From: Balneolaceae bacterium
GTDB taxonomy: Bacteria; Bacteroidota; Rhodothermia; Balneolales; Balneolaceae
DNA length: 39,406 bases
Direction of reading: 5' to 3'
NCBI GenBank assembly: GCA_007123715.1
Contig: SKKO01000041.1
Location: 1-39,406 of the forward strand
A program made the position numbers and the translations under genes. The notes beneath the pieces are model-generated. The model was not told where the DNA came from and made no database searches. It was given only the letters and a program-made list of their open reading frames with translations. Shown in pieces: positions 20,346-30,570 of the stretch (positions are counted from its first letter, which is position 1; the number at the start of each line of letters is the position of its first letter).

Positions 20346-23300
20346 TTGATTCTCCGCTTTATACATATCATCTGGAAGTTTTTTTGGCGAACTGTATTTG
20401 TTCTGGCGGGTATTATTATATCCCTGCTGCTCATCACAGTTGTGGTGATTCAGTTACCCTCCAGTAAAAATTTTATCCAACAGGAAGTAACTGCCGCTTT
20501 TAATGCCCAGTTTGAGGGGACACTAGAAATGGATCAGATCGGCGGTTTTCTGCCATTCAATGCAAGTATTGGCGGTGGAAGAATTTACTCACCATCCGAC
20601 AGCCTGAACCCGGTTCTCACTTTTGCCAAGGCTCAGGCTACGGTTAGTTGGTGGGAACTATTTCAGCAAAATCTTGTTATTTCTTCATTCAATCTCATTT
20701 CTCCAACCCTATTGCTTCATCAGGAAGATGACAACCTTGGTATCATTCAAGCGTTCAGCCCGGTCGCAGAGCGTACAGACAGGCAGCAAGATGAAAGGCC
20801 CTTGTTTTTTAACCGATTCGGAATTTTTGCACCCAGTGTTGGCGTCGAAGATGGCAGAGTCAGGATTGACGAAACAATTGTTCTCCCGCCGCATTTAGAA
20901 CTTCCTGTACCACTTGTTGTAGAAAATCTGAGCTTCTCAGTATTTCTTGAGCTATCGGATAAGCTGGTTTTTTTTGACCTGCCAGATTTCATGGCAGAAA
21001 TTCCCGGCAGCCCGTACGATTTTGTACAGCTTAGCGGCCAGTTTTATAATGATAATGAATACTTCGAGCTAAACAGGTTCAGGATAGCCACCAGCAACGG
21101 TCATGCTGACTTTACTTTCGAAGCTTCTCCTGTCAATATCTTCGACGAAAACATTGGGCAACAATTTTTGGATGCCTCTTATAAACTCGATATCACCGAG
21201 AGCTCTTTCGAACCGGAACTGATCCGCCAGTTTATACCCGGATATCCTGTTTTTGATGATAATCTTGAAATTGAACTCCTTTCAGAAGGAACCTTTTCCG
21301 AATTTTTTATCGATAAACTGCAAGCCAATGTCGGGCCTTCGTCAGTATTGATTTCAGCAAGTGCAAGGCAGCTTTTGTCCGATGAGATTACATACATTGC
21401 CCATCTTGAAAATGTAGTTATCCATCCGGAAATGATGAACTGGCTATCAGACACATATTTCGATGGTACGGTAAACCTGAACCGGTACCAATTAAGTACA
21501 ATAAGAGGTGAATTATCCGGAAACAGGTCAGAACTTGATACTGAATTTATTGCTGAAACCCAGGCAGGAGCCTTCCGGCTTGAAGGTAATCTTGATTTCG
21601 GGGATCACCTGGGGTATAACCTCCGTTTTGAGGTAGATTCTCTCGATATCACCCCTTTCCTGGCAGATACTGTCAACAGCAGTATCATTCTCGGAGTTGT
21701 AACGGTTGACGGGAGCGGCTTGGCTGAGAATACGCAATTCAACAGCAGAGTAGACCTGAGCAACAGCCGGCTTTTCGGCCATGAAGCTGATACATTTACC
21801 GCTGATTTTTCGTACGCGGCTAATCAATTAACCTATAATATCAGAGGCGCGAGTAATCAGCTTCTTGTCTCTGCACAAGGCCTTTACGGAAATATAGACG
21901 AAAGGCAGGTTTTTGTAACCGAAGGTGTCGTTCAAAACTTTGACATAAAAAACTTTTATGATGACTTTCATGCCGATTCCACCAATTTCAACAGTACTTT
22001 CTCTGCAAACGTGGAATGGTCAACCCTGGATGACCTAACCGGCAGAATCAGTTTTGAAATGGATGAATCTACCATTAATGCCGATACACTGAGGCCTCAC
22101 CAATTCTATTCTGACATCAGCACTATCCGTGACCAAACACGGAGAATTCGTTTCACAAGCTCATTTTTTGACGGCGAAGTGTCCGGCAACCTTCAACAGG
22201 ACCTGATTCGTGATTTTACCAAACACTGGTCGCTTTACCTTCGTGAGAGAATAGCTGAAGAATTCATCTTTAACGAAGAATTTTCTGATGGAGAATCACC
22301 CTTTTCACCTTCCGGAGCATGGGATGAATCTCTTGCCGTTGATTTACAAATTGAAATGACGGTTAAAGACCTTTCCCTGCTCAGAAAATATCTGCCTGAA
22401 CTTCCAAATCTTCAGAGTACTGCCAGGTTTAATACTTCTGTTAATGCAACCAAAGAACGTTTGCTGATTACGGGCAGCCTTGCAGACCCTTATTTCAGAT
22501 ACGGAGAATACTCCGCTGAGAATTTCAATGCGGCATTTACAGGCAGTTTCCGCCACAGCAGCGATCTCAAAACATCGAACACAGTTGATCTTCAATTAAG
22601 CAGCGCTCAGACAGAGATTAGAGGAACTGAATTAAAGGAAAGTTACCTCAGTGTTACCATGCGCGATGACTCGCTTAGTATCCGGAACCGTTTTGAGAGG
22701 CTTCATGACGATCTTAAACTGGAATCGAGGCTAACGGGCTTTTTACGGCCCGGACGGTTTACTGTTTTTGTAGATGACCTTACGATAGGCACCACAACCT
22801 ATAACTGGCATACAGAGGGCTCGCCGAGATTCAGTTATACAGAACGAAAAGCTCTGGAAATTGAAAACTTTATTCTGACCAGCGATCAGGATTTTATTGA
22901 AATTAATGGTACCTACAGCACAGATCTCGATGACTCTGTTGAATATAACGTGCAAAATCTCGATCTCTCACGAATTTCGTCGCTCATCGGCGGGCGTATA
23001 CAGTTTTCGGGAATCATGAACGGTAATTTTGTCACACAAACCCTTACTCAGATACCATCCATCGAAGGTGACATCAATATCGAAGAAGGCCGGATTCTTG
23101 GGCGGATCATCGGTGATGTATCGCTCAACAGCCGTTTTAATTCCGAAACCAACCGTTTCGATACGGAAATTCATGTATTTACAAACCCCGATAAATATCC
23201 CCAATATTATCAGCGGAATGACGGTATTGGCCAGGATTTGAGATTAAGCGGTTACTTCCAGCTTCCCGATGAGAATACCGGTCCGGATGACGACCTGTTT

Positions 23301-25049
23301 TACTTTGATGCAGATCTGCGACAGATTGATATGTGGATTGTAACCTTTATCATCCCCAAGATCATGGAGGAAACGGAGGGGCGTTCAACCGGTACAGGTT
23401 TTGTACGTGCTACTCGCGAAGGGATTGATTTCAATGCCACCTTCAATATTGATGATGTATTTGCCCGCCCGGCATTTACAAATGTTGGCTACACACTGAA
23501 CGGTGAGCTTGATTTTAATATGTCAAACGGCATTATTTTCAGAGATATCCGTGTAAATGACAGTCTTAACGGCACCGGCTTGTTTTACGGTCAGATCGAT
23601 CTGAATCAATTCTCGGCATCACCTGCACTGAATATGACACTGGATCTGAATAATCTTCATTTCATGAATAATTCCTATGATCCGGATATCCCCTTCTACG
23701 GGAGCATATTTGGGACCGGCCAAATTCAAATCGCCGGACCAAGCTTTTCACCGTTGCTTCGCACTACCCGGCCATTGGTCATTTCCCCTAACTCAAGAAT
23801 ATCCATTCCGCTTGAACCTGAAATAGAATTTGAGCAGGACAGAAGATTTATCCAATTCGTGGAATCTTTCGACATACCGTTCTGGGAACGCCAGTTAACG
23901 CCGGGCGATCGTACTGTGACTGCCAACGGTGATATACCTGAACTAACGTTTCTGGAATTATTTACCATGGATCTGCAGTTTCAGGCGAATGATCCTTTAA
24001 ACGTACGCCTGATTTTTGATCCTGTTACGAATGACATCCTCAGTACGAACGGCACGGGCTTGATCCGGATACTTCTGGAGGACCAGGATGTAAGCATGTT
24101 CGGAAGATTTAACATCACCGGGGGTGAGTATCAATTTGTTAGCGGTGATGTTTTTACCCGCAGGTTTACACTTCAGGAAGGCGGCAATATCAGCTGGTCG
24201 GGTGACCTGGTTGATGCCGCACTGAATGTTACTGCTGTTTACAGGGCCAGGCCCAATATTTCCACACTCATATCCGGTACCGGCGCGGGTACCGGTGTAG
24301 ATCCCGGCCAGCGTATTCCTATTGAGCTTGTGCTGCAGATTGGAGGTACAATTATGTCTGTGGAAAATGAATTCTTTTTCCGTATACCAACCGGTATTGA
24401 GGGGACGACAGACCCGACCATTGCCACACAAATCAATAACCTCAATCAAAATGAGGATGAAAAACTGATCCAGGCCACCAGTATACTTTTGAGCGGTAAT
24501 TTTATCCCCTCATCTCAAGCACAGGGCCTTGGTATTGCAGAGGGTTTCTCAGGTACTGCTGCCGTGGTAAACCCGCTGATAACCAGCCAGGTTATTAACC
24601 CGCTATTATCGAACCAGATCAATTCCCTGCTGAGTAGTGACATCACGTTCGATATCGATTTCAATCTCACGGCATTAAATGAAGTTGACCTCGGTGTGGC
24701 ACTGCGGCTTTTTGATGACCGTGTAATTTTACGCCGCGAAGGCCAAATCACAGGGGAACAGAGTGATATTGGCGACCTTGGCGCCACCTACCGTATTAAC
24801 AGAACATTTTCGTTGACCGCATTTCACCGGCAAGACCCAACACTAACCTACACAAGCGGTGTCGAAACAAGACAGGCTCAGGAAATGAACGGCATTGGGC
24901 TTGAAGCCCAGGTACAATTTAATTCATGGCAAAACCTTCGGGCACGTATTTCCAATGCTTTTCGTTCACTGTTTGGAATAAAAGAAAAAGAACAAGAAGA
25001 AATCATGGCGATAACAAATGAGCGCCAAAACGAAAAAATAAATGAGTAA
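20346..25049 (+). CDS. TamB-like translocation and assembly module protein (AsmA/TamB superfamily)
   Basis: A 1567-residue envelope protein. An N-terminal membrane anchor (about residues 9-34, Ile/Leu/Val-rich) is followed by a very long run of beta-strand-rich repeats with alternating polar/hydrophobic residues, as expected for a lipid-conducting groove. The C-terminal roughly 400 residues form the DUF490/TamB_C domain (LNVRLIFDPVTNDILSTNGTG, GGEYQFVSGDVFTRRFTLQEGG). The family bridges inner and outer membranes and is linked to phospholipid transport and OMP assembly. The only plausible start is TTG at 20346-20348, six bases after aroB, because the first ATG is about 60 codons in, beyond the anchor. 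It overlaps rnr by eight bases. Confidence 0.92.
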   Translation: MILRFIHIIWKFFWRTVFVLAGIIISLLLITVVVIQLPSSKNFIQQEVTAAFNAQFEGTLEMDQIGGFLPFNASIGGGRIYSPSDSLNPVLTFAKAQATVSWWELFQQNLVISSFNLISPTLLLHQEDDNLGIIQAFSPVAERTDRQQDERPLFFNRFGIFAPSVGVEDGRVRIDETIVLPPHLELPVPLVVENLSFSVFLELSDKLVFFDLPDFMAEIPGSPYDFVQLSGQFYNDNEYFELNRFRIATSNGHADFTFEASPVNIFDENIGQQFLDASYKLDITESSFEPELIRQFIPGYPVFDDNLEIELLSEGTFSEFFIDKLQANVGPSSVLISASARQLLSDEITYIAHLENVVIHPEMMNWLSDTYFDGTVNLNRYQLSTIRGELSGNRSELDTEFIAETQAGAFRLEGNLDFGDHLGYNLRFEVDSLDITPFLADTVNSSIILGVVTVDGSGLAENTQFNSRVDLSNSRLFGHEADTFTADFSYAANQLTYNIRGASNQLLVSAQGLYGNIDERQVFVTEGVVQNFDIKNFYDDFHADSTNFNSTFSANVEWSTLDDLTGRISFEMDESTINADTLRPHQFYSDISTIRDQTRRIRFTSSFFDGEVSGNLQQDLIRDFTKHWSLYLRERIAEEFIFNEEFSDGESPFSPSGAWDESLAVDLQIEMTVKDLSLLRKYLPELPNLQSTARFNTSVNATKERLLITGSLADPYFRYGEYSAENFNAAFTGSFRHSSDLKTSNTVDLQLSSAQTEIRGTELKESYLSVTMRDDSLSIRNRFERLHDDLKLESRLTGFLRPGRFTVFVDDLTIGTTTYNWHTEGSPRFSYTERKALEIENFILTSDQDFIEINGTYSTDLDDSVEYNVQNLDLSRISSLIGGRIQFSGIMNGNFVTQTLTQIPSIEGDINIEEGRILGRIIGDVSLNSRFNSETNRFDTEIHVFTNPDKYPQYYQRNDGIGQDLRLSGYFQLPDENTGPDDDLFYFDADLRQIDMWIVTFIIPKIMEETEGRSTGTGFVRATREGIDFNATFNIDDVFARPAFTNVGYTLNGELDFNMSNGIIFRDIRVNDSLNGTGLFYGQIDLNQFSASPALNMTLDLNNLHFMNNSYDPDIPFYGSIFGTGQIQIAGPSFSPLLRTTRPLVISPNSRISIPLEPEIEFEQDRRFIQFVESFDIPFWERQLTPGDRTVTANGDIPELTFLELFTMDLQFQANDPLNVRLIFDPVTNDILSTNGTGLIRILLEDQDVSMFGRFNITGGEYQFVSGDVFTRRFTLQEGGNISWSGDLVDAALNVTAVYRARPNISTLISGTGAGTGVDPGQRIPIELVLQIGGTIMSVENEFFFRIPTGIEGTTDPTIATQINNLNQNEDEKLIQATSILLSGNFIPSSQAQGLGIAEGFSGTAAVVNPLITSQVINPLLSNQINSLLSSDITFDIDFNLTALNEVDLGVALRLFDDRVILRREGQITGEQSDIGDLGATYRINRTFSLTAFHRQDPTLTYTSGVETRQAQEMNGIGLEAQVQFNSWQNLRARISNAFRSLFGIKEKEQEEIMAITNERQNEKINE

Positions 25050-27192
25050 TAAAAAATTAAGTTCATTAGAAAAAAATATTATTGAAATCCTCAAATCCTA
25101 CCCGGATGCATCCATTCCCATTCCGTTGCTTGTGGATGCTTTAGGTTTATCCAAAAAAAAGGGAGGGGAGAAAATTAAACACTCCGTAAACCGGCTCAAG
25201 CTTCTTGGGCATATTATGGTTTCAAGAGGAAATCTTGTACGGCTGAATGAGCCAATTGCGAGTGATGCAAGCATTGTAGAGGGCAAAATTGATGTTACCA
25301 GCCACGGTGACGGGTACGTAATCGTTGAAGGCCGCGACCAGGATATTAAAATATCAAACAGGTATATGGGTACTGCCCTCAATGGTGATATTGTGAGGGC
25401 AAAGCTGATTGGGTATCACAAAAAAAGCAGTAAACCGCTTGGCAGAATTGAGGATGTTATCCGGCGGGCCAACACCCTTTTTGTGGGAGAACTTGAGGTA
25501 ATCGCCAAAAACACTTACCTGATAAGGGCAGATAAACAATCTTCACGAGCCGATTTCTTTGTAGATCCCGGCGATCTGAACGGCGCCAAACCGGGTGAAA
25601 AAGTCACATTTCGGCTTGTACAGTGGGACGATGTGCGTGGGTACCCCCAGGCTAAAGTTGAACAGGTTCTTGGCGATGCAGGCTCAAATGAAGCAAATAT
25701 TTTGTCAATTCTTGCGGAAAAGCAATTCCACGGCGCATTTCCGCGTGAAGTTGAGCAATTTGCTGAAAACATTTCCTATGATATTCCACAGCAGGAAATT
25801 GACCGCCGACGCGATATGCGAAATGAAGTGGTCTTGACGATTGATCCCGCTGATGCCAAAGATTTCGATGACGGACTCAGCATCAGTGTTCTTGACAACG
25901 GTAATTACTATCTCGGTGTGCATATAGCCGATGTAACCCACTATATGCCGCGTGGATCAGCTTTAGATGAAGAGGCATATGGCCGGGGAACCAGTGTATA
26001 TATGGTTGACCGTGTGATACCCATGCTGCCCGAACGTTTGAGCAACGGTGTATGCAGCCTTCGCCCGCATGAAGACAAACTCACTTACAGCTGTTTTATG
26101 GAAATTGCCCTTAACGGCAAGGTGGTCGATTATTCCATTGAAGAAACGGTAATTCACTCCAAACAGCGGTTTGTCTATGAAGAAGTACAGGAAATTCTCG
26201 ATGGCAAGAACGACCATCCGTTCATCAGCGAGCTGAGAACACTACAGTCTCTTGCCAACATTCTGCTTGAAAAAAGATTTCGGGAAGGGTCTATCAATTT
26301 TGAAACTCCTGAACCGAAATTTGTGCTCGATGAATCAGGAAAGCCTGTAGATGTTATTATTAAAGAACGAATTTTTGCTCATCGTCTGATTGAGGAATGT
26401 ATGCTGATGGCCAATAAAACAGTGGCCTATCATGTTAGTACATTGCGTAAAAAAGGTAACAAAAGAGAAAAAAATGATCATCCATTTCTCTATCGTGTAC
26501 ACGATAAACCCGACCTCGAAAAGCTTTACAACATACGGGAAACAGTGAAGCCACTGGGTATAAATTTCGAGACTGATGGCAGCATATCTTCAAAAAAAAT
26601 AAATTCATTATTAAAGGATATCGAAGATACTTCCATTGAAAATATCGTGAATGGCCTGGTACTGCGTTCGATGGCAAAAGCTGAGTATTCGCCAGCAAAC
26701 ATCGGGCATTTTGGATTAAGCTTTCCCAACTATGCACACTTTACCAGCCCGATACGGCGTTATCCCGATGTAGTTGTACACAGGCTTCTTAAACGATACA
26801 ACTCGGGAGCTAATGAGTACACCTTTACACAACTTGAAAAAATTGGTGAACACTGCAGCGAAAGAGAACGTTATGCAGTAGAAGCTGAAAGAGACTCTGT
26901 AAAACTGAAACAAGTGGAGTTTCTTTCTGAGCGGCTTGGCGAATCATTCCCAGGCACTATCAGCGGTGTAACAGAAAACGGAATTTATGTTATACTGGAT
27001 GATATTTATTGCGAAGGAATGATACGCGTTAGTGAATTGAAAGATGATTATTACATTTATCATCCTAAATTGCATTGCCTTATCGGCAGGTCTAAAGGAC
27101 GAAAGTACAGGCTTGGCGATTCAATCAATGCCAAAGTGATTAATACTGATTTAGAAAGAAGACAAATTGATCTTGTAATCTCTGATTTTTAA
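25042..27192 (+). CDS. rnr: Ribonuclease R
   Basis: RNase R is a processive 3'-5' exoribonuclease that degrades structured RNA and acts in rRNA and trans-translation quality control. The 716 residues show an N-terminal winged-helix-like segment (1-65), cold-shock domains (about 75-225), the RNB catalytic domain with the four-Asp metal site DPADAKDFDDG (about 268-278), SPIRRYPDVVVHRLL, and a C-terminal S1 domain (about 632-715). The S1 tail ends without the long Lys-rich extension of E. coli RNase R. The ATG lies inside the 3' end of tamB (8-bp overlap). Residues needed for catalysis are present. Confidence 0.95.
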   Translation: MSNKKLSSLEKNIIEILKSYPDASIPIPLLVDALGLSKKKGGEKIKHSVNRLKLLGHIMVSRGNLVRLNEPIASDASIVEGKIDVTSHGDGYVIVEGRDQDIKISNRYMGTALNGDIVRAKLIGYHKKSSKPLGRIEDVIRRANTLFVGELEVIAKNTYLIRADKQSSRADFFVDPGDLNGAKPGEKVTFRLVQWDDVRGYPQAKVEQVLGDAGSNEANILSILAEKQFHGAFPREVEQFAENISYDIPQQEIDRRRDMRNEVVLTIDPADAKDFDDGLSISVLDNGNYYLGVHIADVTHYMPRGSALDEEAYGRGTSVYMVDRVIPMLPERLSNGVCSLRPHEDKLTYSCFMEIALNGKVVDYSIEETVIHSKQRFVYEEVQEILDGKNDHPFISELRTLQSLANILLEKRFREGSINFETPEPKFVLDESGKPVDVIIKERIFAHRLIEECMLMANKTVAYHVSTLRKKGNKREKNDHPFLYRVHDKPDLEKLYNIRETVKPLGINFETDGSISSKKINSLLKDIEDTSIENIVNGLVLRSMAKAEYSPANIGHFGLSFPNYAHFTSPIRRYPDVVVHRLLKRYNSGANEYTFTQLEKIGEHCSERERYAVEAERDSVKLKQVEFLSERLGESFPGTISGVTENGIYVILDDIYCEGMIRVSELKDDYYIYHPKLHCLIGRSKGRKYRLGDSINAKVINTDLERRQIDLVISDF

Positions 27193-27207: not shown

Positions 27208-30200
27208 ATGCGCAAGTTTTATAAAACAATTCTTGTATCGATTCTTACCCTGTTTATTTCCACGTCGGCTGTTCAGGAACTGTTTGCCCAGTTTTTCTTT
27301 TTTGGAAAAAACCGGGTTCAGTACGAAAAATTTGACTGGAGGTATATCGAAACCGATCATTTTGACATCTACTATTACGATGCCAAAAACTACCATCTTG
27401 CACAATTTACAGCTGAGACGGTAGAATCGTCACTAAAACAGCTGGTTGAAGACATTGGCTCACCCCTAACCGACAGAATCCCGGTAATCATTTATGATTC
27501 TCACAGTGATTTCTCGCAAACCAATGTGGTGCGGCTTCCTGTAGATGCACAGGGTATTGGCGGGGTGACGGATAAATTCAAAAACAGGATGACCCAGCCC
27601 TTTATGGGCGATTATGCCGATTTTCGACGTACCATTCAGCATGAGCTTTTGCATGCGTATATTAATGATGTGTACTACGGCGGTTCTGTTCAGTCTATTA
27701 TGCAAAACAACATTCAGCTTGTATTTCCTTTGTGGTTTGAGGAAGGCCTGGCCGAATACCTTGCCCTTGGCTGGGATACGCAAACCGATATGTACATACG
27801 GGATGCTATCCTGAATAATTACCTGCCACCCATATCACAACTTGGCGGTTTTTTTGCTTACCGAGGCGGGCAGGCTTTTTGGTATTATATTGCCGAGCAG
27901 TATGGCCGGCCGAAAATTACCGAGATCATGCAGCGAATCAGAACAACCCGGAACATCCAGCAGGCACTTGTACAATCTCTTGGCCTCCAGGTTGATGAAT
28001 TATCAGAACGATGGAAAGAATACTGGCAACAGCGTTACTTCCCTGAAGTTGCTGAGAGACAGTCTTTAAGTTCAGTTGCCACGCATTTAACCCGGCATTC
28101 ACGTACACGCACTTACGATACCAGCCCTACCATATCTCCAAGAGGAGACCGTATTGCCATGATCTCAAACCGCAGAGGCGTGTTTGATGTTTTGGTATTG
28201 GATGCCAATACAGGCGAAAGGCTTAAAACGGTGATCAGCGGTGCAGACAATCCGATGTTTGAAGAACTCAACATCCTGAATCCGAATCTTTCCTGGTCGC
28301 CTGATGGAACACAGCTTGCGCTTTCAAGCAAATCGCAGGGGTCGTATAACCTCGCCATTGTAGATTATGAAACCCTGAATTCAAGAACCATCCGGTTCCC
28401 TGAACTGGATGCCATTAACTCTGTGGCATGGTCGCCAGACGGGCAGAAAATTGCTTTTGATGGCAATATTGGCCCCTATCAGGATATTTTTGTCTACAAC
28501 CTCGAAAACAGTGATTTCATAAATCTTACAGGTGATGTATTCACCGATAAAGAACCTGCATGGGGCCCGGATTCAGAAACCGTTTATTTTGTATCCAACA
28601 GGGGCGACCGTATTCAGCCCAATACCTACCTGGCAGGATATTCCACGATGCAGCACAATTCCTTTTATCAATCCGATCTATACAGGGTTAGAATTGGCAG
28701 CAACAGAATTGAAAGGTTAACCAATACACCAAACTGGTCGGAAACACAGCCTACTCTTACTGCTGACGGACGTCTATTGTTTGTTTCGGATCAAAACGGG
28801 ATCCCCAATATTTATGAGTATGATACTGAAAGCCGTTCGGTATATCCGATAACCGATTTACAATCAGGTATTATGCAGATCTCGGTTTCCAGGGATGGAA
28901 CGCGCCTTGCTTTTAACGCGCTGAACAGAGGTGCCCCGGATATTTATTTAATGCGTTCACCTTTCAGTTTGAGAAGAGATGCACCTCTTACGCCCAACAC
29001 ATGGGCTCAAAAACGGGATTCCATGGATCCCGGTGACCTTGTTCCCGCCATACATTATGCACAACAGATGATAGGTGCCAGAGACCACGGAAACGTGATT
29101 TCATCCAGACTGCTGACACCACAGCAGCAGGATGTAACCGCAGATCCGGGCGAAGAGGACGAAGAAACAGAACCAGAACCAGAACAGAATGATTTTGGCA
29201 GAATCGATTTCCGGAATTACCAATTCGGAGAGTCCGTAATAAGAGATACCACCATCAGGCTTCGGGACGATCCCAGAAATTTTGAACCGGAAGGTAATCT
29301 CACTGAAGACGGATATTTCCAGCCCAAAGAGTACAGGCTCCGGTTTTCACCCGATTTTAGTTATGCTGCCGGCCAGCTGAGTACATATTACGGTACTTCT
29401 GCATTTGCTTTTGTGACGCTTACTGACCTTTTTGGCGACCATCAGATTTCATTTGGGTCTAATCTTGTATTCGACCTTCGTAACAGTGATTATACATTTC
29501 AGTATGGTTACCTGCGAAACCGTACCAACTTTTTCACATCCTTCTTCCACCAGTCAAGAAATTATCAAACTTTCTTTGGCGAGTTATTGCGTTTCCGAAC
29601 CTACGGAGGAACCGTGGATTTTCAATATCCGCTGAACCGCTACCAGCGATTTGATTATGGTGTATCTGCCATTGGTATCGCCCGCGACTTCAGTACGGTA
29701 CAGGGTCTGGGCGGCAGAAATGTTAGTAACGAAACAGCCTGGTTTGTATACCCGCAGGTAACTTTTACCGGAGATTTTACCGTACCCGGCTTTATAACTC
29801 CTAGAGGCGGCAACAGGTACTCCCTTAGGCTTGCAGCGAGCCCGCCATTGGGAAATGAGACTCCCCAGTTTGCCACATTGATGGGAGACTACCGGCAATA
29901 CATCGATCTGGGCGTGGGCTACTCAATCGCATTCAGAGGATCAGGTGCCGTATCATACGGACGTGATTCGCAAACCTTTTTCATGGGTGGCATGCTTGGC
30001 TGGATTAACCAGCGGTGGTCGAATGCGGAGATTCCTTTTGAACGTTTGGCCGATACATTTTTCACTCTTCCGGCAACACCGCTAAGGGGCCATGAATTCA
30101 ACACTATTTTTGGTGATAAATTCACCCTGATTAATGCGGAATTCAGATTCCCGCTATTTGCAGCAGTACTGCCGGGTCCTCTTCCAATTTTACCACTTTG

Positions 30201-30570
30201 GAATATCACTGGCGTTGCATTCGTCGATGTTGGTTCGGCGTGGGGCTTTGACGTTCCTTTTTCCAGATTTACCGATCAGCAGGGTAATCCCATTGTCTAT
30301 TTTGAAAACCCTGCGCGTTTCCAAGGCAAAATCGGCACCAAACGCGAAGCTTTCATCAATCCTCAAACAGGTTTGCTGAGAGATGGAGCACCGCAACAGG
30401 GAGACATCCAAACCAACTTTGTTGAAGGCGATATTTTGATCGGTGCCGGTTTTGGACTGCGTACCATTCTCCTCGGCCTGCCTTTCCGGTATGATATAGG
30501 CTGGCCATACGGGCGCGACGGCTTCTCGGGAAGGCCTATTCACTACTTCTCGATCGGGATAGATTTTTAA
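27208..30570 (+). CDS. Outer-membrane fusion: MA-type metallopeptidase domain, TolB-like propeller and Omp85/BamA-like barrel
   Basis: A 1120-residue exported protein with a signal peptide (cleavage near LFAQ, residue 28). Domain 1 (about 35-285) is a peptidase-MA-like gluzincin domain with HELLH at 145-149 and the probable third zinc ligand Glu179 in WFEEGLAEY. Domain 2 (about 300-600) has six TolB/PD40-type blades, for example WSPDGTQLALSS and WSPDGQKIAFDG. A Glu-rich linker (about 645-665) follows. Domain 3 (about 710-1120) resembles the surface-antigen barrel of Omp85 proteins and ends in aromatic residue F, as outer-membrane barrels do. The peptidase and propeller should face the periplasm. 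The metal site is complete, so activity is possible. It is last in the rqcH-rnr run, 15 bases after rnr, and is followed by a terminator. Confidence 0.85.
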   Translation: MRKFYKTILVSILTLFISTSAVQELFAQFFFFGKNRVQYEKFDWRYIETDHFDIYYYDAKNYHLAQFTAETVESSLKQLVEDIGSPLTDRIPVIIYDSHSDFSQTNVVRLPVDAQGIGGVTDKFKNRMTQPFMGDYADFRRTIQHELLHAYINDVYYGGSVQSIMQNNIQLVFPLWFEEGLAEYLALGWDTQTDMYIRDAILNNYLPPISQLGGFFAYRGGQAFWYYIAEQYGRPKITEIMQRIRTTRNIQQALVQSLGLQVDELSERWKEYWQQRYFPEVAERQSLSSVATHLTRHSRTRTYDTSPTISPRGDRIAMISNRRGVFDVLVLDANTGERLKTVISGADNPMFEELNILNPNLSWSPDGTQLALSSKSQGSYNLAIVDYETLNSRTIRFPELDAINSVAWSPDGQKIAFDGNIGPYQDIFVYNLENSDFINLTGDVFTDKEPAWGPDSETVYFVSNRGDRIQPNTYLAGYSTMQHNSFYQSDLYRVRIGSNRIERLTNTPNWSETQPTLTADGRLLFVSDQNGIPNIYEYDTESRSVYPITDLQSGIMQISVSRDGTRLAFNALNRGAPDIYLMRSPFSLRRDAPLTPNTWAQKRDSMDPGDLVPAIHYAQQMIGARDHGNVISSRLLTPQQQDVTADPGEEDEETEPEPEQNDFGRIDFRNYQFGESVIRDTTIRLRDDPRNFEPEGNLTEDGYFQPKEYRLRFSPDFSYAAGQLSTYYGTSAFAFVTLTDLFGDHQISFGSNLVFDLRNSDYTFQYGYLRNRTNFFTSFFHQSRNYQTFFGELLRFRTYGGTVDFQYPLNRYQRFDYGVSAIGIARDFSTVQGLGGRNVSNETAWFVYPQVTFTGDFTVPGFITPRGGNRYSLRLAASPPLGNETPQFATLMGDYRQYIDLGVGYSIAFRGSGAVSYGRDSQTFFMGGMLGWINQRWSNAEIPFERLADTFFTLPATPLRGHEFNTIFGDKFTLINAEFRFPLFAAVLPGPLPILPLWNITGVAFVDVGSAWGFDVPFSRFTDQQGNPIVYFENPARFQGKIGTKREAFINPQTGLLRDGAPQQGDIQTNFVEGDILIGAGFGLRTILLGLPFRYDIGWPYGRDGFSGRPIHYFSIGIDF

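Follow-up and report, generated by a model that had tools for sequence, protein, structure and literature searches.

What might a single polypeptide do in the cell envelope if it carries a zinc metallopeptidase, a β-propeller and an Omp85-like barrel? The question is raised by a gene of a Balneolaceae bacterium, found on contig SKKO01000041.1 (assembly GCA_007123715.1), of which the whole analyzed stretch of 39,406 nucleotides is called the window here. Reading of the open reading frames in the whole window showed an intact frame of 1120 aa on the forward strand, from the ATG at 27208 to a stop codon ending at 30570. A preliminary description made from the sequence alone had placed a peptidase, a propeller and a barrel in this order, and Pfam, the AlphaFold model and Foldseek agree with it. 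The predicted protein (hereafter the fusion) begins with a signal peptide, followed by a zinc-peptidase domain of the gluzincin type and then by a TolB-like propeller with six blades; an acidic linker leads on to an Omp85 barrel of 16 strands. The features of the locus are as follows:

20346..25049, + strand: tamB, 1567 aa, overlapping rnr by 8 bp (PF04357, 105.6 bits; conserved linkage)
25042..27192, + strand: rnr (ribonuclease R), ending 15 bp before the start codon of the fusion (TIGR02063, 740.9 bits)
27208..30570, + strand: gene of the peptidase-propeller-Omp85 fusion, 1120 aa (open reading frame, Pfam, AlphaFold model)
27208..27291, + strand: predicted Sec signal peptide, residues 1-28 (ending in LFAQ), without a lipobox Cys (read from the sequence; helix 2-20 in the model)
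27337..28077, + strand: gluzincin-type metallopeptidase domain, residues 44-290 (PF13485; model and Foldseek matches to M9/M1 peptidases)
27640..27654, + strand: HELLH zinc motif, residues 145-149 (H145, E146 and H149 invariant in 78/78 homologues)
27742..27744, + strand: E179, presumed third zinc ligand, in W-x-x-E-G (invariant in 78/78)
28105..28977, + strand: TolB-like six-bladed β-propeller, residues ~300-590 (five PD40 stretches; TolB by sequence and fold)
28978..29331, + strand: linker, residues 591-708, acidic and mostly disordered, with a conserved DFRNYxF (AlphaFold model, alignment)
29344..30567, + strand: Omp85 β-barrel, 16 predicted strands, C-terminal Phe (PF01103; AlphaFold strands; BamA/TamA by profile and fold)
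30085..30090, + strand: R960-G961 motif, predicted to lie in the loop from strand 11 to strand 12, the Omp85 L6 position (model, alignment)

Domains of the fusion

Residues 73-272 matched the Pfam family Peptidase_MA_2 (PF13485) with 41 bits, above its cut-off of 32.4. A separate model of the peptidase domain reached a pLDDT of 87.6. In a fold search, the best PDB matches of this model were the peptidase domains of M9 collagenases (best E 9.7e-6), followed by M1 aminopeptidases. The sequence profile points weakly to M9/M1 as well. On its model, the domain is assigned a gluzincin fold of M9/M1-like type. It combines the features that define gluzincins (Peptidase MA), an HExxH motif and a downstream Glu in a thermolysin-like fold, as judged from the PF13485 score, the invariant ligands and the fold match.

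The zinc site read earlier in HELLH and Glu179 held in the alignment, where H145, E146, H149 and E179 are identical in all 78 homologues. Among them are L069, a divergent paralogue encoded in the source genome itself, and proteins of KSB1 and Gemmatimonadota contigs. Such invariance excludes chance, and a degenerate peptidase was rejected for the same intact site. Over all 78 homologues the peptidase is the most conserved domain (mean majority-residue share of 0.56, vs 0.48 for the propeller and for the barrel), whereas in clade B alone, described below, the barrel is about as conserved as the peptidase. The four unvarying residues and the high overall conservation of the domain around them indicate that selection probably acts on catalysis.

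The full-length AlphaFold2 model, built from a 30-sequence alignment (pLDDT 75.9, pTM 0.73), places a mixed alpha/beta domain at residues 44-290, followed by the propeller (~300-590) and, at 628-695, by an acidic stretch of low confidence. Six blades, as proposed before, were read from the predicted strand pattern. PD40 matched the propeller in five stretches (84 bits), and TolB was its top PDB match both by sequence profile and by fold (Foldseek E 4.6e-13). The propeller is therefore of the TolB type by these matches, but the full-length TolB family TIGR02800 scored 118.9 bits against a cut-off of 343, and the protein ends in a barrel; simple membership of the TolB family was rejected on this score. 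Profile and HMM searches matched the propeller part of TolB alone and gave no match to the TolB N-terminal domain.

Between propeller and barrel, the DFRNYxF motif is conserved in the linker of clade A (28978-29331 in the window), while the clade B linker is much shorter.

In a whole-genome search, Omp85 (PF01103) matched residues ~772-1120 of the fusion with 42.3 bits (cut-off 24), and the homologues L060 and L097 also score above the cut-off. Foldseek against the PDB retrieved BamA (E about 2e-10) and TamA (8us2, 1.6e-9), and the profile search agrees. As expected for Omp85, 16 main strands were counted from the predicted strand pattern, between residues 713 and 1116. R960-G961 (R in 77/78 and G in 76/78 homologues) falls in the long loop between predicted strands 11 and 12, which is the position of the L6 motif in Omp85 proteins such as BamA. 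Nearly invariant positions in the 78-homologue alignment are R960, E978, R980, D1007, G1081 and R1085. The preliminary description had named two observations that would count against it, the lack of an Omp85 fold at the C terminus and the loss of the zinc site in most orthologues. The first is contradicted by the BamA/TamA matches, and the second by the site's presence in 78/78 homologues and in 10/10 members of the more distant clade C.

No POTRA family was matched in the Pfam search of the fusion, in line with the earlier proposal that a propeller and a protease stand in its place. Omp85 members lacking POTRA domains are already described in an Omp85 survey, namely WD40-Omp85 and noNterm (PMC4104836). 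By sequence and model, the fusion is assigned to the Omp85 superfamily, as a WD40-Omp85 type of protein that has a zinc peptidase and a TolB-like propeller where other members have the periplasmic POTRA arm.

Distribution and gene neighborhood

Profile searches gave a strong match throughout the class of the window, in 49 of 49 genomes sampled (best E no higher than 3e-204), and in each of the 41 Gemmatimonadota genomes sampled (best E no higher than 1.5e-138). In several other families of the window's phylum, for example f18 and f21, the matches were weak and of the propeller type only. In the tree, clade A, which holds the window fusion, is apart from clade B. Clade A linkers have about 80-160 aa and those of clade B about 33 aa, and clade B proteins are mostly about 945 aa long. 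In clade C, the 10 members mentioned above carry HEFTH or HEYTH with an intact W-x-x-E-G. The source genome itself has a clade C-like copy (L069:1338-4154, contig C38), with HEFTH and the peptidase-propeller-barrel order, ended by the contig edge; intact relatives of this paralogue are L154-L163. Among the sequences compared, the fusion thus belongs to a widespread and already named family with three paralogous clades, in which the protease site appears never to have been lost.

Two broken copies were also seen. L016:5992-9366 lies in two frames with one stop, and G015:C151:408-3577 lies in two frames with a TAA inside; they are either pseudogenes or assembly errors.

The window has aroK, aroB, tamB, rnr and the fusion in succession on the same strand, either overlapping or separated by very short gaps. 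The location after tamB and rnr, already pointed out from the sequence, proved to be conserved: this order was found in 29/29 Balneolia loci having enough upstream sequence, and outside the window's class in families f12, f17, f20, f32 and f35. Several of these five are Ignavibacteria, going by locus names from the same genomes or families. Clade A genes of the Rhodothermia families f3-f11 are located apart from tamB. Clade B genes have the sugar-transport gene ptsI upstream (e.g., L060, L057, L051 and L124-L127), a link as consistent as that to tamB, and many are followed by a gene for a PQQ/BamB-like propeller. Lasting linkage to a functionally unrelated gene, ptsI, does occur in this family, and steady linkage is therefore weak functional evidence here.

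The source genome has a second tamB (L134, contig C362), whose immediate neighbor is an Omp85 barrel gene that runs off the end of the contig. This pair resembles the TamL2-TamB2 operon of Flavobacterium johnsoniae, a species in which the stand-alone TamB and TamL are essential (PMC12045153). POTRA-bearing Omp85 proteins are also encoded in the source genome: a TamA/TamL-like protein (L003) and an ordinary BamA (L002). In genomes with a single tamB, such as G024 and G032, the fusion is the only nearby Omp85 found. A tree of the last 700 residues of TamB was poorly resolved and did not settle whether the Balneolia and Ignavibacteria-type TamB proteins are orthologous. With POTRA-bearing Omp85 proteins present and the tree in this state, we did not adopt the idea that the fusion is the sole substitute for TamA. 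Scans for promoters and terminators gave no informative signal, with 32 promoter-like sites vs 27.2 expected.

Comparison with known systems

The WD40-Omp85 proteins were named in 2014 by Heinz and Lithgow, who count them as one of 10 Omp85 subfamilies and liken them to a fusion of BamA and BamB (PMC4104836). Like these proteins, the fusion has an N-terminal propeller closest to TolB joined straight to an Omp85 barrel, without POTRA, and we assigned it to the subfamily by the architecture as described there. Unlike it, the subfamily has no peptidase in its main-text description (PMC4104836). The same paper also assigns a "Metallo" (metalloprotease) subfamily by PF00149 (PMC4104836). The "metalloprotease" label looks mistaken. 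Since PF00149 is the calcineurin-like phosphoesterase family and not a protease family, the fusion does not belong there.

PlpD also carries an enzyme on an Omp85 barrel, in the periplasm (PMC11116518), but this enzyme is a lipase-like patatin domain with one POTRA, whereas the fusion has a zinc peptidase and a propeller and no POTRA. A zinc peptidase at the outer membrane is likewise found in BepA, which we propose as a working analogy (PMC8423444); BepA is a separate periplasmic M48 protein, and the peptidase of the fusion is M9/M1-like and barrel-fused. BamA and BamB together provide an Omp85 barrel and a propeller, but there the propeller is a lipoprotein of its own (BamB) and the barrel protein (BamA) carries POTRA domains. 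With TamA/TamL, the fusion shares an Omp85 barrel encoded near tamB; it differs in having no POTRA, no lipobox, rnr in between, and an extra peptidase and propeller. Simple membership of TamA was rejected, as the three POTRA domains of TamA/TamL are missing from its Pfam matches. TolB, the closest solved relative of the propeller, is soluble and has neither barrel nor peptidase.

The preliminary description had known of no described function for such proteins. This stands, as our literature search found no functional study of the fusion family and in 2024 a paper on PlpD still counted the WD40-like Omp85 proteins among the uncharacterized ones. It needs qualifying in that the propeller-Omp85 combination had already been named WD40-Omp85 in the earlier survey (PMC4104836) and that the family is ubiquitous in some lineages. 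New in the present analysis are the zinc peptidase with its invariant site, the division into three clades, the data on distribution and the linkages to neighboring genes. The "propeller barrel" thereby becomes a candidate enzyme of outer-membrane biogenesis, with a zinc protease seemingly never lost, three paralogous forms and a near-universal presence in whole lineages.

Possible roles of the fusion

Most likely, although we give this view a little less than even weight, the fusion acts in the periplasm as a protease and assembly factor anchored to the outer membrane, by analogy with BepA or PlpD. The N-terminal domains of Omp85 proteins face the periplasm. The barrel would hold the enzyme on the periplasmic side of the outer membrane, the propeller would dock partner or client proteins, and the peptidase would clip or remove stalled envelope proteins, or mature specific ones. 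In E. coli, BepA and BamB do this job beside BamA as separate proteins; here one polypeptide would unite insertion with quality control, provided that the protease acts on barrel proteins during their assembly. PlpD, likewise an enzyme joined to Omp85, had been taken for an exporter of its enzyme but was shown to retain the enzyme domain in the periplasm (PMC11116518). The periplasmic proteolytic or chaperone module of the preliminary description is well founded as a hypothesis, and PlpD offers the best precedent for an enzyme domain placed there. BepA, a separate periplasmic zinc peptidase, promotes the assembly of LptD on BAM or degrades it (PMC8423444), and the propeller that docks on BamA is likewise a protein by itself, BamB (PMC13067283). 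The periplasmic placement, the proteolytic activity and the substrate class are inferred, and so is any link to TamB. An invariant protease tethered at that face of the outer membrane, together with a docking propeller, would be best read as an assembly and quality-control factor. The adjacency to tamB-rnr in Balneolia (29/29) and in families f12, f17, f20, f32 and f35, and the BamB-like gene after many clade B genes, favor this role; rnr between tamB and the fusion, the ptsI link of clade B and the Rhodothermia clade A genes away from tamB weaken the argument from linkage. Insertase activity may have been lost, because the POTRA domains that handle substrates in BamA and TamA are absent.

The fusion could instead be a third component of the TamB system, its barrel being the outer-membrane dock of the TamB bridge, with propeller and protease regulating or proofreading the proteins or lipids that TamB delivers. 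We regard this as unlikely. It would account for the gene order shared by Balneolales and the families with genomes of Ignavibacteria type, for the 8 bp tamB/rnr overlap and the 15 bp rnr-fusion gap in the window, for the two tamB genes of the source genome, one beside its own Omp85 gene (C362) and the other near the fusion, and for the single-tamB genomes (G024, G032) with no other Omp85 found nearby; the essential role of TamB and TamL in F. johnsoniae adds to its appeal (PMC12045153). However, the POTRA-bearing L003 of the same genome could serve the window TamB, rnr intervenes, Rhodothermia clade A and clades B and C have no tamB linkage in the loci examined, and the TamB tree leaves the orthology of the linked TamBs unsettled. 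An equally doubtful, more ambitious version makes the fusion a core factor of outer-membrane biogenesis in Rhodothermia, Ignavibacteria and Gemmatimonadota, combining an insertase barrel, a docking propeller and a quality-control protease in a single molecule, clade A being partnered with the TamB bridge; such an integrated TAM-plus-protease machine is not known to have been described in Proteobacteria.

Self-export, in which the barrel would carry the propeller and the protease of the same chain out to the cell surface (the type Vd route formerly suggested for PlpD), is rather improbable. In its favor, fusions of an enzyme to Omp85 were initially interpreted in this manner (PMC4104836), and the peptidase fold resembles secreted collagenases. 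Against it, the PlpD enzyme stays periplasmic (PMC11116518), a folded peptidase of 250 aa plus a propeller of six blades would make bulky cargo for a barrel of 16 strands, and near-ubiquity in whole lineages better fits a housekeeping role. Less probable again is an envelope tether, in which the propeller would bind a Pal-like or peptidoglycan-linked partner as TolB does, the barrel would only anchor, and the peptidase would trim wall-linked proteins. Its attraction is that TolB is the nearest solved relative of the propeller; yet the match lacks the TolB N-terminal domain, TolB-like propellers are common and have many partners, and the conserved L6 motif would be left unexplained. An annotation or assembly artefact, or a peptidase that is a dead relic, is scarcely credible: a few copies do have broken frames (L016, G015:C151), but full-length open frames occur in most genomes sampled from the class and the zinc site is invariant across the three clades. 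Artefact or fused neighboring genes were rejected on this wide recurrence of full-length frames.

Default hmmscan missed both the window TamB (20346-25049) and, in a scan of the fusion alone, its Omp85 part, which the genome search detected with 105 and 42 bits, respectively. We attribute these misses to search filters, and such genes may go unannotated. The homologues L060 and L097 show all three Pfam domains in one scan.
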